A stretch of DNA of 20,711 nt. Origin: a virus. Of this stretch, positions 1 through 18,207 are shown piece after piece; within the stretch, counting starts at the first letter, position 1, and each line of letters begins with the position of its first letter. The translations under genes and the position numbers were made by a program. The stretch covers positions 1 through 20,711 of IMG/VR virus record IMGVR_UViG_3300028653_000244. One strand, written 5' to 3'. Below the pieces are notes generated by a model. The model did not search any database and was not told the origin of the DNA. It worked only from the letters and a program-made list of their open reading frames with translations.

Positions 1-623
1 GGACCAGTTGCGCCTGTAGCACCTGGAGTTCCTTGTGGACCCGCTGATCCTGTAGGTCCGGGTGGTCCACCAGCACCTTGTGGGCCAGTTGGTCCGGTAG
101 GGCCTGGAATACCTTGAGGCCCAGGGGGACCTGGAGGGCCTTGTGCGCCATCTACTCCATTAGTTCCGTTTGTACCATTAGTCCCTGGTGGGCCTGGAGG
201 TCCAGGAGGACCATTCAATCCATTTGTTCCAGGGGTGCCAGGAGGACCGGCTGGACCTTGTGATCCGTTTGTTCCAGGAATACCTTGAGAACCTTGAGGC
301 CCTTGAACACCTGGGGTACCTTGAGGTCCCGCTGGGCCCATTGGACCAGTTGACCTAGTAGGTCCCTGTGATCCTGTGGCACCTTGAGGTCCCGCAGCAC
401 CAGTTGAGCCTGTTGCTCCGGTGGGACCTTGAGGACCAGTTGGTCCCGTTGGTCCCGTAGGGCCTGGAGGTCCGGGAGGACCGGGAGGACCATATCCGTC
501 ATTTCTAGCAGCAATAGCAAGTAGTAATCCCAAATTATTATTTGGGGCAGGTGAACTTCTAAAAATTGGTCTTTCTTCTCTTGTCGTATGATGACAAGGA
601 TCGCATTTTGGATCTCCGCACAT
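1..623 (-). CDS. Collagen-like repeat protein, probable virion fibre (3' end outside window)
   Basis: The frame is open from an ATG at 621-623 to the left edge, giving 207 residues without a stop; the C-terminus lies outside. An AGGA at 630-633, six bases upstream, supports this start. Residues 1-44 are non-repetitive, with a Cys/His cluster ([12 protein letters not shown]) and a hydrophobic stretch (LGLLLAIAA). From residue 45 to the edge the protein is an uninterrupted Gly-X-Y array of 55 triplets, rich in [12 protein letters not shown] and GAT. All triplets keep Gly except one, where residue 90 is Arg. Gly-X-Y arrays form collagen triple helices; in phages they are known from tail fibres and other surface fibres, so a trimeric fibre is inferred. 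It is the last gene of the visible cluster, after the HNH gene. Local base composition is much more GC-rich than its neighbours because of Gly and Pro codons. Attachment to tail or capsid cannot be decided here. Confidence 0.85.
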
Positions 624-782
624 TGAATGTCCTATTTGTGTATTAGTTTGCTCCAAAAAGGATACAAGGATCGGACTTAAATGATGTGATCGCTACACAT
701 ATAAGGATAATTAATTACCACCCAATTAACCCAGGACATACATTGTCGATCATTTTGATATACATTGATAGAAAATAAAATA
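624..782 (-). promoter_or_regulatory. Leader region of the collagen-like gene
   Basis: This is 159 bases between the HNH stop and the collagen-like start. Apart from the AGGA ribosome site at 630-633 I see no convincing terminator and no canonical -35/-10 pair. Several AT-rich hexamers (around 690-700 and 750-765) could be -10-like or late-promoter-like, but none stands out. The collagen frame stays open upstream to a stop near 692, without a better start that has a ribosome site. Confidence 0.3.
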
Positions 783-1346
783 TTATTTAACTAAATTTTC
801 GTAAAGATTATTTATCCAAGTACGAAATTCTTCTTGAGTTCTTTCACGTTTTGCAAAATTACAATATTTACAGCATGGAACACAATTCTCTTTTGTGTGT
901 GGAAGTGTATTATCTACGCGATCTAAGCCATTATAATTAAATATTCCATTTTCTTTTATATTTTCAGATGAATTTTTGCCTGCCGCAGCGTTCTGATTAT
1001 TAGATGGAGGTGCATCACAATAATGACAGTTTTGTTGGGATAATTCGAAAAAATCCTCAAATGATATTTCGCTATACCTATTTTGCCATATTTTCCGCGC
1101 AGATGCTTCTTGCGGGGTGTATTTTATACATGCCGAATACATTTTTTCAGCACGAGCTGAACGCTGTTCATTATTCCAGCAACCACACGATTTTGTGCCG
1201 CCACTTCGTAATTCTTCCGTTTTTATATCTTTTTTATTTCCACAATCGCATTCACATTTCCACGCAGTTCTTCCGCCAATTGAAGGAGCGGCTTCCAGTA
1301 CCAATAATCGATTGAATTTTTGCCCCACGAGATTTAGTTTTTGCAT
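783..1346 (-). CDS. HNH homing-type endonuclease with N-terminal zinc-binding domain
   Basis: A 187-aa free-standing HNH nuclease. The N-terminal part (NLVGQKFNRLLVLE, then Cys31, Cys33, Cys35 and Cys54, Cys56 in KSCGC) is the DNA-recognition zinc module common in phage HNH proteins. The C-terminal part has CHYC at 107-110, GLDRVDN at 140-146 and CCKYCNFAK at 158-166, the beta-beta-metal HNH core stabilised by structural zinc. Such proteins nick or cut DNA and spread themselves between phage genomes. The ATG at 1346 is chosen because the conserved domain begins right after it, and because a longer TTG start at 1436 would place a terminator hairpin and a promoter inside the gene. No Shine-Dalgarno site is well spaced for this ATG. 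It sits between the major capsid gene and the collagen-like gene as an independent cassette. Confidence 0.87.
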   Translation of the reverse strand: MQKLNLVGQKFNRLLVLEAAPSIGGRTAWKCECDCGNKKDIKTEELRSGGTKSCGCWNNEQRSARAEKMYSACIKYTPQEASARKIWQNRYSEISFEDFFELSQQNCHYCDAPPSNNQNAAAGKNSSENIKENGIFNYNGLDRVDNTLPHTKENCVPCCKYCNFAKRERTQEEFRTWINNLYENLVK

Positions 1347-1353
1347 GCCTGTT

Positions 1354-1381
1354 ATTATAACATCTGTGCCAGGGATGTCAA
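1354..1381 (-). promoter_or_regulatory. Sigma70-type promoter for the HNH gene
   Basis: Read on the minus strand, TTGACA (1381-1376) is followed after 16 bases by TATAAT (1359-1354). Both hexamers match the bacterial sigma70 consensus exactly. The expected transcription start, 6-7 bases past the -10, falls at about 1347-1348, one or two bases before the ATG at 1346, which predicts a leaderless or nearly leaderless mRNA. It lies directly downstream of a terminator, so the HNH gene appears insulated from capsid transcription. Confidence 0.7.
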
Positions 1382-1388
1382 GTAAAAG

Positions 1389-1418
1389 AAAAGGCTTTGT
1401 ATTTCTACAAAGCCTTTT
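1389..1418 (-). terminator. Rho-independent terminator after the capsid gene
   Basis: A perfect 13-bp inverted repeat (1389-1401 and 1406-1418) with a 4-base loop that reads GAAA on the minus strand, followed there by TTTTCTTTTA. It would stop minus-strand transcripts coming from the major capsid gene. The other strand also ends in a short T run, so weak bidirectional action is possible. Confidence 0.8.
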
Positions 1419-1484
1419 CGATATTTTAACTAACAATCAACCACTTCACAAGCATATAACTTGAACCATTGTTATATATTGCGT

Positions 1485-1576
1485 GGAAGATAATCTCTGA
1501 TGGTCTCAGAGCCCCGATTAAGACTCGGTGGGACGGTGCTAGTAACGCCGTTTCGGTTCGATCCCGCTATCTTCCG
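1485..1576 (+). tRNA. Class II tRNA with anticodon AAG and tRNA-Sec/allo-tRNA-like shape
   Basis: The only plus-strand gene. The elements are: an acceptor of 8 bp (GGAAGATA 1485-1492 with TATCTTCC 1568-1575) plus a possible A-C ninth pair; a 6-bp D-stem CTCTGA/TCAGAG (1495-1500 and 1506-1511) with GG in the loop; an anticodon stem CCGA/TCGG (1514-1517 and 1525-1528) closing the loop TTAAGAC, anticodon AAG at 1520-1522; a 6-bp variable arm (1533-1538 and 1546-1551); and a 3-bp T-stem CGG/CCG around a perfect TTCGATC loop (1557-1563). The discriminator is G1576 and no CCA is encoded. The long variable arm with G73 is the serine or selenocysteine pattern, while the anticodon reads leucine CUU/CUC. 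The 8-bp acceptor and 6-bp D-stem are abnormal for standard tRNA-Leu or tRNA-Ser. It could also be a decayed tRNA; expression is unproven. Confidence 0.6.
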
Positions 1577-1605
1577 CGAAACATTATATATCAGGCCTAT
1601 ATAAA

Positions 1606-2619
1606 TTAGGCTCCAATTGTTACGGATTTATTGCCCTTTGACACGCCTCTTGGATTGACAATCGCAATTCCGATTTGTTCTGAAACAACCCAACCTAACT
1701 TAAGTTGTTTTGGTTCATCGGCTGGAAGAACTTCGATGTCTTGTCTAATAGGCATGACTCCAACGAATTCAGGATCTGCACATGCGTATACGGTCCCAGG
1801 AGGTACGATTTTGCTTACCATAATGTCAGCACCCCAGATGTGAGCATAAAGACCAGTTTGAAGAATTTCTCTTTGTGTTACTGGATCAATTTCGCCACCG
1901 CCTACGCCTTGACCACCACCAGATGCCCACTTAAGGATATCGGTGAATTCATTGATGTTCATGAAGTACTTGGTTGTTACTAAGTCCCAACGATCTACTT
2001 GAGCCTTAAGTTCAACAAGGTCACGCTTTAACATACCAGCGTCTGCAATGTCTTGGACAATGTTTTCTTGTGCTGCTGCTGCGTCGATAGCTGCGAAAAC
2101 GTTTGCGTCTTCTTGAGCTTGAATTTCTTGACGTGCCTTTTGAACGGAACGGTCAATGACGTTGAAACGACGACGACGAACTTCTGAGATTCTAACTGTT
2201 GGGTTAGAGAATAATTCGAACTCTGGAACTACGACACGATCACCGAAGACACGTGACTCTGGACCGGTACCGTTACTTGAGATAACGACAGCGGCGACGT
2301 CAATATCGCGCTCGTATGTTGCGTATGCACCTTGTCCGATTGGATCGACAACAAGAGCACGACGTGCAATTCCGTGGTAATCTAAGTTTCTACGGATTGG
2401 GTTTGCCATTGCTTGAGCAAGAGCAATCTTTCCTTCTTGTGTAAGAATTGCGCGAGTGATTAATTCGTCACGCTTCTCATCAGAAAGAGATACTTGACCA
2501 GCAAGACCCATGTTTGATGGTTGGTTGTCTTCTAAAATTGCGGCGAACTTAACAAGAGTTTGCATTGCATCTCTAACAGATGAAGCATTTAAAACTCCTT
2601 GGTTGTTGTACATATTCAT
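1606..2619 (-). CDS. Major capsid protein (HK97-fold type)
   Basis: 337 aa, the likely shell subunit of the head. An N-terminal segment rich in polar helix (roughly residues 1-75) precedes a core with VVVPEFELFSNPTVRISEVR and a long helix (RSVQKARQEIQAQEDANVF). Then come a KYFMNINEFTDILKW segment typical of the peripheral domain of phage capsid proteins, and a C-terminal beta region (WGADIMVSKIVPPGTVYA, DPEFVGVMPIRQDIEV, SEQIGIAIVNPRGV). This layout fits major capsid proteins of large myoviruses; the assignment rests on recognition of the pattern, not on a search. The ATG at 2619 has an AGGAG ten bases upstream; a second ATG two codons later is an alternative. The gene has its own leader after a terminator and is followed by a second terminator, as expected for a very highly expressed protein. 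Confidence 0.87.
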   Translation of the reverse strand: MNMYNNQGVLNASSVRDAMQTLVKFAAILEDNQPSNMGLAGQVSLSDEKRDELITRAILTQEGKIALAQAMANPIRRNLDYHGIARRALVVDPIGQGAYATYERDIDVAAVVISSNGTGPESRVFGDRVVVPEFELFSNPTVRISEVRRRRFNVIDRSVQKARQEIQAQEDANVFAAIDAAAAQENIVQDIADAGMLKRDLVELKAQVDRWDLVTTKYFMNINEFTDILKWASGGGQGVGGGEIDPVTQREILQTGLYAHIWGADIMVSKIVPPGTVYACADPEFVGVMPIRQDIEVLPADEPKQLKLGWVVSEQIGIAIVNPRGVSKGNKSVTIGA

Positions 2620-17454: not shown

Positions 17455-18207
17455 TTAAATTGTATTAACGAACCCTCCACCGTTTTCGATAGGACCAGAC
17501 CCTTTGATACCTGCGTCATTGTCGTATAATCCAACTTGTGGAATTTGATCTCCTTCAGAGATAGACTTATCATTATAGTTTTGCTTTGTTACAACATTTT
17601 GTCGTGTCGGATACTGATCATATGCGTAATCATAACCATATTGATGATTAGGATCTAACTGTGGAGCAAAGCTTTTTACATCTGCACTATCGATAGTCGA
17701 TGCAGCTTCATCTCTACTATTATCCGCGATATCCCAAGTAGAATTGTTATCTTTATGATTATCTTTACAAGACTTATTTATAATTTTCTCATAAAATTTT
17801 ACGACACTTGGGTCTAACCCAATGCCAAATCCTAGTTTCTTGGCTTCAGCAATAGCTCTTTCATAGGAATATCCCATGTATTGGCATTGATACATCGCCA
17901 CAACCATTCCAGTTCTATCCTTGCCATGAAGACAATGAACGTAGGTTGGACCACCATCAATTAATAATTCGTGTAAATTATAGCTGAGAAGCCTTGCTAT
18001 TGGTTCAAAATCCTTCATATTGATAGGAATTATGATATGTTTAATTCCCAATAGTTTACATACTCTATTGATTCGTTCGCCACACTTTTGATCTAAACTA
18101 ACAATTTTTTTAATACCATATACATCATGAAGAACGTTTACATCTTTGATAGATGGGCATGATCCTCGGTATAAACCTTTAGTTATAAGTCTAAATCTAT
18201 CTAACAT
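17455..18207 (-). CDS. Dual-specificity/tyrosine protein phosphatase with disordered tail
   Basis: 250 aa. Residues 1-145 form a compact cysteine-dependent phosphatase. LITKGLYRGSCPSIKDVNVL and KKIVSLDQ are the usual N-terminal strands of the family. Asp66 (NMKDFEP) is a candidate general acid. The P-loop HCLHGKDRTG (91-100) supplies nucleophile Cys92 and Arg98 in the CX5R signature. The catalytic set looks intact. Residues about 150-250 are an added low-complexity tail rich in Asp, Asn, Tyr and Gln, with IPQVGLYDND and a Gly-rich end. The family removes phosphate from Tyr, Ser or Thr residues, and some members act on inositol phosphates or RNA 5' ends. The start ATG at 18207 follows the previous stop by one base (TAACATG). 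Its presence among virion genes suggests a packaged or assembly-linked enzyme, which is inference. Confidence 0.85.
   Translation of the reverse strand: MLDRFRLITKGLYRGSCPSIKDVNVLHDVYGIKKIVSLDQKCGERINRVCKLLGIKHIIIPINMKDFEPIARLLSYNLHELLIDGGPTYVHCLHGKDRTGMVVAMYQCQYMGYSYERAIAEAKKLGFGIGLDPSVVKFYEKIINKSCKDNHKDNNSTWDIADNSRDEAASTIDSADVKSFAPQLDPNHQYGYDYAYDQYPTRQNVVTKQNYNDKSISEGDQIPQVGLYDNDAGIKGSGPIENGGGFVNTI

Follow-up and report, generated by a model that had tools for sequence, protein, structure and literature searches.

The window, by which we mean the whole 20,711-nucleotide stretch of viral DNA that was analyzed (a 20.7-kb IMG/VR record), carries a capsid gene and a cluster of structural genes. 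All of the plausible protein genes lie on the minus strand, so that a tRNA gene close to the capsid gene is, as originally predicted, the only gene seen on the plus strand. Relatives of the capsid protein (phrog_2522) number in the hundreds and lie on contigs of up to 481 kb; the nearest isolate by this protein is Bacillus phage G, with 49% identity; the source of the stretch is a giant phage. Large relatives of this phage have between 23 and 65 tRNA genes each in the parts that were read. The structural cluster also includes a GIY-YIG homing endonuclease (PF01541; 9782-10549) and a dual-specificity/tyrosine phosphatase-like protein (17455-18207), and a collagen-like tail fibre is found at the edge of the window (3-656).

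The features of the locus are listed in Table 1. The tRNA gene is antisense to the capsid mRNA and is placed between the capsid stop codon and the capsid terminator; the capsid mRNA thus carries the complement of the tRNA. In relatives the stop-to-terminator interval has a median of 29 nt and measures 19-48 nt in 72 of 74, and the interval of the window is about 150 nt longer. Two relatives with a longer interval have no tRNA there, and none of the 80 relatives examined has a tRNA beside the capsid gene. Around the tRNA gene no promoter could be recognised on the plus strand, and ARAGORN calls no minus-strand tRNA at the locus. In two relatives (L030 and L034) the same endonuclease, with 64-66% identity, follows the capsid gene and there is no tRNA. 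The tRNA is therefore a separate, lineage-specific insertion, and the HNH gene was rejected as its obligate partner.

Table 1. Positions of features in the window and of selected RNA genes in other phages.
Feature	Position	Strand	Basis
HNH/endonuclease VII-like free-standing endonuclease	783-1346	-	phrog_374, phrog_1035
Endonuclease gene promoter, consensus TTGACA-16-TATAAT	1354-1381	-	
Capsid intrinsic terminator, 14-bp stem and T tail	1388-1419	-	
Interval from capsid stop to capsid terminator, 186 nt	1420-1605		interval comparison
Class II tRNA, 8/4-type with one mismatch, anticodon AAG, G73, no encoded CCA	1485-1576	+	ARAGORN, Rfam, family model R2
Acceptor stem, 8 bp, GGAAGATA paired with TATCTTCC	1485-1492 with 1568-1575	+	sequence, fold
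D-arm, 6-bp stem CTCTGA/TCAGAG, loop UGGUC, no A14	1495-1511	+	fold
Anticodon arm, 4-bp inner stem CCGA/TCGG, loop UUAAGAC (U33, A37)	1514-1528	+	fold
Anticodon AAG, reading CUU, and CUC if A34 is deaminated	1520-1522	+	ARAGORN, fold
Variable arm, 7-bp stem, 7-nt loop	1532-1552	+	fold
T-arm, 3-bp stem CGG/CCG, loop TTCGATC, outer pair U1553·C1567 broken	1553-1567	+	fold
Discriminator G73	1576	+	sequence
Major capsid protein	1606-2619	-	phrog_2522, E 6.7e-73
RNase P RNA loci of related phages	L143:3158-3489 (G025:C1:58158-58489); G028:C1:51723-52066; G010:C1:411691-412037; G026:C1:56887-57250; G030:C1:36384-36715; G020:C1:415917-416284		
tRNA-Ile(UAU) loci of other phages	L148:4573-4666; L158:8469-8562; L136:15541-15633; L180:8274-8365; L113:1466-1555		

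Anatomy of the tRNA

ARAGORN identifies a tRNA-Leu(AAG) at 1485-1577 on the plus strand. The MFE fold of 1485-1576 reproduces, pair by pair, the anatomy described in the original prediction: acceptor and D-stem of 8 and 6 bp, a T-stem of 3 bp and a long variable arm. The sequence has G73 and the anticodon AAG and encodes no CCA. In this fold an A9·C83 mismatch lies beyond the acceptor stem, and a C·U mismatch adds to the inner anticodon stem. The anticodon loop is otherwise normal; an alternative register giving the serine anticodon AGA was rejected on inspection of the fold, since it would leave the stem unpaired. Between C61 and position 72 the 3' strand counts 12 nt, which makes this an 8/4 (or 9/3) tRNA with one mismatch and not the 8/5 form of tRNA-Sec, and the branch can be drawn equally well as 9/3, if the A·C pair is included, or as 8/4 with a mismatch. 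The sole structural flaw is the fourth pair of the T-stem, which is U·C here and is paired in all 34 of the relatives used to train the family model described below. Among the matches listed, the T-stem has fewer than 4 pairs in 7 of the 83 distinct tRNAs that share the acceptor, the window's included.

The top Rfam match is to RF01852 (tRNA-Sec), with 33.9 bits and an E value of 0.0022 over all families, which falls below the gathering score of 47. Other phage 8/4 tRNA-Ser match RF01852 at 34-45 bits, likewise below threshold, and the model also responds to many ordinary phage tRNAs and gives matches in 14 of 14 control genomes. The likeness to tRNA-Sec is explained by this sub-threshold response of the other phage 8/4 tRNA-Ser. 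The architecture had been described as that of tRNA-Sec or an allo-tRNA; the serine type and the relation to Sec-like and allo forms stand, but the likeness is not a trait specific to Sec, being shared by the phage 8/4 tRNA-Ser. The acceptor sequence of E. coli selC given in the original prediction was correct when checked.

The phage 8/4 tRNA-Ser family

When the parts of the large relatives that had been read were scanned for an 8-bp acceptor on a 12-nt branch, the window's tRNA was joined by a single other match, a tRNA-Ser(CGA) from a relative of 267 kb (G025). The latter has G73 and an identical acceptor, GGAAGATA/TATCTTCC, which prompted us to search the viral collection by pattern. This acceptor occurs in the 8/4 arrangement in at least 118 stretches, which represent at least 83 distinct tRNAs, the window's included, although near-identical records may be hidden in these counts. 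Sister phages with similar capsid proteins (L116, L120, L131, L140 and L143) also carry 8/4 tRNA-Ser. Such tRNA-Sec-like serine tRNAs are thus common in phages, and they lie under the curated tRNA-Sec cut-off of Rfam. Among the matches listed, U73, which is unusual among serine tRNAs, is present in 44 of the 83 distinct members (L174-L291), and CCA is encoded in 53 of 82. Genomes of Calothrix and Dulcicalothrix (L298-L301, L303 and L306) carry an 8/4 tRNA-Ser(CGA), showing that the fold is also present in cyanobacterial genomes.

A covariance model of the family (R2) was built from 34 members, with the window sequence excluded, on an alignment (A4) fitted to the structure of R1, itself derived from the window; R1, a window-only model, was too narrow when run on relatives in whole records. 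All five helices show covariation across the family (paired cells 93.4%, none of 500 shuffles as good, and slid controls below 50%). R2 scores the window's tRNA at 70.2 bits (E value 9e-16 within the window), against at most about 46 bits for ordinary tRNAs and 52-78 bits for held-out members, which were picked by the window's own acceptor, so that the scores of all are raised alike. The tRNA stands 15th by R2 score, mid-range among the held-out members; the molecule is therefore not decayed as a whole, and its score is far beyond chance, not the noise that would have counted against the original prediction. From its sequence and fold, the tRNA very probably belongs to this large phage tRNA-Ser family with its 8/4 arrangement of acceptor and T stems, and its predicted identity is serine.

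Other tRNA and RNA features were seen in other phages. A tRNA-Ile(UAU) with a long variable arm, the loop of which resembles C(T/A)GAT(A/T), recurs among them. The sister phage G006 has a serine-type class II tRNA with the amber anticodon CUA (L125:15139-15230), and class I CUA tRNAs are found in several other sister phages. Short tRNAs (74-78 nt) with leucine anticodons and without the long variable arm occur at L189:8731-8953 and L180:11604-11841. Within the capsid clade of the window's phage, six giant phages have a full-length bacterial-type RNase P RNA (RF00010, 247-308 bits), the genes for which lie near their tRNA arrays, and sub-threshold RF00010 matches are present in G034 and G036. 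A limited literature search found no paper on a phage-encoded RNase P RNA, which could process the phage's own odd tRNAs.

Anticodon, predicted amino acid and use of CUU

Among the matches listed, all 82 of the other distinct viral tRNAs with the same acceptor have serine anticodons, where L201 and L216, with odd machine calls, read UGA by eye and are counted as serine; the window's tRNA alone has AAG. The subset with A9 and G73, which was fully enumerated, contains 12 stretches besides the window, all of them serine, and about 35 further 8/4 tRNAs with other acceptors are without exception serine as well. Among bacteria and archaea, 84,980 species genomes yielded 13 matches to the acceptor pattern, of which 12 are tRNAs, each with a serine anticodon, and no AAG version. 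Tight patterns for the tRNA had no match in viral contigs, pattern scans for AAG with similar acceptors gave only chance matches or ordinary tRNAs, and a second copy of an AAG 8/4 tRNA was found in neither the viral nor the bacterial scans. In isolated phages the DNA relatives were limited to weak 30-40 nt pieces of tRNA-Ser. Since all the others are serine, the tRNA is filed as a derived variant of the family and not as a plain tRNA-Ser. The view that AAG is rare for leucine does not hold in this phage group, in which two sister phages (G006 and G020) have an ordinary, canonical tRNA-Leu(AAG).

Serine identity resides in the variable arm and is independent of the anticodon, G1-C72 and G2-C71 are conserved, and G73 is an antideterminant for the E. 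coli LeuRS (PMC9976931). The window's tRNA has G1-C72, G2-C71, G73 and a long variable arm and lacks A73 and A14; A73 is found in all 32 of the CCA-bearing tRNA-Leu of sister phages, including the two tRNA-Leu(AAG). On these grounds serine is the predicted amino acid, and the same identity elements agree with the earlier expectation that SerRS would charge the tRNA irrespective of its anticodon. In E. coli, bacterial allo-tRNAs of this shape placed serine at CUC and UUA, both of them leucine codons (PMC7609411).

CUU makes up 153 of the 480 leucine codons (32%) in the genes of the window. It is the commonest leucine codon of the capsid gene (13 of 21), a share that is the highest among 81 capsid genes (mean of relatives 30%, SD 17%). 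At the CUU positions of the window, aligned relatives have leucine at 75.8% and serine at 1.0% of 2,221 residues, and no other leucine codon in the window is as highly conserved as leucine. Reassignment of CUU was therefore rejected; strong mistranslation late in infection is also unlikely, and abundant Ser-tRNA(AAG) during capsid synthesis would be harmful. The suggestion that serine is placed at the phage's own CUU codons is not supported, given this abundance and conservation. The evidence conflicts chiefly at this point, the leucine meaning of CUU standing against a predicted Ser-tRNA(AAG), and for this reason we regard the insertion of serine at CUU at some stage as possible but somewhat less likely than not.

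Interpretation and comparison with known systems

The explanation that we tentatively favour is an intact gene of the phage 8/4 tRNA-Ser family, the anticodon of which has changed to AAG; the product is, by its architecture and identity elements, a phage-borne allo-tRNA, which may act as a serine missense reader. Charging by SerRS would depend on the long variable arm together with G73, G1-C72 and G2-C71, CCA would be added after transcription, and the resulting Ser-tRNA(AAG) might compete at CUU and perhaps at CUC. The phage's own reliance on CUU as a leucine codon means that any such missense effect must be small or must precede capsid synthesis. Antisense capsid transcription through the tRNA gene would oppose its late expression. 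In a more elaborate form, which we consider quite improbable, an early Leu-to-Ser mistranslating tRNA would disturb host proteins until the convergent late capsid transcript, with its full complement of the tRNA, silenced it; if this is true, the overlap in antisense would serve as an inbuilt timer that spares the CUU-rich capsid.

It is rather unlikely, though a reading of some weight, that the gene is silent or dying, a cassette that entered the stop-to-terminator interval of the capsid gene and lost its expression or charging, and the anticodon of which then drifted freely. None of the 74 relatives whose interval could be measured has the insertion, which is consistent with such a relic, as are the wrong strand, the failure to recognise a plus-strand promoter, the missing CCA, the broken outer T-stem pair and the lack of AAG relatives. 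However, the fold score is mid-range for the family, and pairing is perfect or nearly so in the stems of the acceptor, D-arm and variable arm. Moreover, AAG lies two substitutions from AGA and three from UGA, GGA, CGA or GCU, and such changes, with U33, A37 and the T-loop all kept, are unlike random decay. The same intact molecule might be a true supplier of leucine, charged by a host or phage LeuRS and feeding the CUU-rich capsid gene; the record share of CUU in that gene argues for this, and the canonical tRNA-Leu(AAG) of G006 and G020 suggest that reading by AAG is useful in the group. We find it distinctly unlikely, as the tRNA has the LeuRS antideterminant G73 instead of the A73 of all CCA-bearing sister tRNA-Leu, a 5-nt D-loop without A14, and a body and acceptor of the serine type; furthermore, one of the two phages with tRNA-Leu(AAG) (L050) has a CUU share of only 22%, so that the correlation between this tRNA and CUU is weak.

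Defences that target tRNAs exist, and phage tRNAs can counter them. A non-decoding decoy, either a look-alike of tRNA-Leu(AAG) or a SerRS binder, that soaks up a host toxin which cleaves or modifies tRNAs would account for the intact fold without harm to CUU translation, but we consider such a role improbable. A selenocysteine tRNA has practically no probability. Sense anticodons do occur in some Sec tRNAs, and the top Rfam match, seven of the eight acceptor pairs and the 6-bp D-stem are those expected of selC, but the score is under the gathering value of an unspecific model, and the anticodon (AAG, not UCA) and the branch length (12 nt, not 13 bp) refute that identity. We know of no natural role for allo-tRNAs with serine identity and foreign anticodons. 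In this giant-phage case the family background is clear, as more than 100 relatives read serine, and the codon concerned, CUU, can be measured, so that mistranslation, decoy and relic are directly testable against each other.

Phage and bacterial 8/4 tRNA-Ser were reportedly described by Mukai et al. in NAR in 2017. The tRNA of the window shares with these tRNAs the acceptor, G73, the 12-nt branch on the 3' side and a D-stem and variable arm that are both long, but differs in having AAG in place of a serine triplet and in its broken outer T-stem pair. The sister-phage member at L143:10565-10649 sits among tRNA genes, whereas that of the window is alone beside a capsid gene. Bacterial tRNA-Sec (selC) resembles it in the acceptor, D-stem and long variable arm and differs, as set out above, in branch and anticodon. 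In Candida, tRNA-Ser(CAG) is likewise a serine tRNA that has a leucine anticodon and keeps G73, but there CUG is reassigned and depleted (PMC8178436), whereas CUU is abundant here and conserved as leucine. The allo-tRNAs of soil bacteria and metagenomes, which are 8/4 or 9/3 molecules with serine identity and non-serine anticodons, leucine ones included (PMC7609411), share with it the 12-bp branch (with one mismatch here), the long D and variable arms, the serine identity elements and the non-serine anticodon; the window's tRNA differs from them in being encoded by a giant phage, between a capsid stop codon and its terminator.
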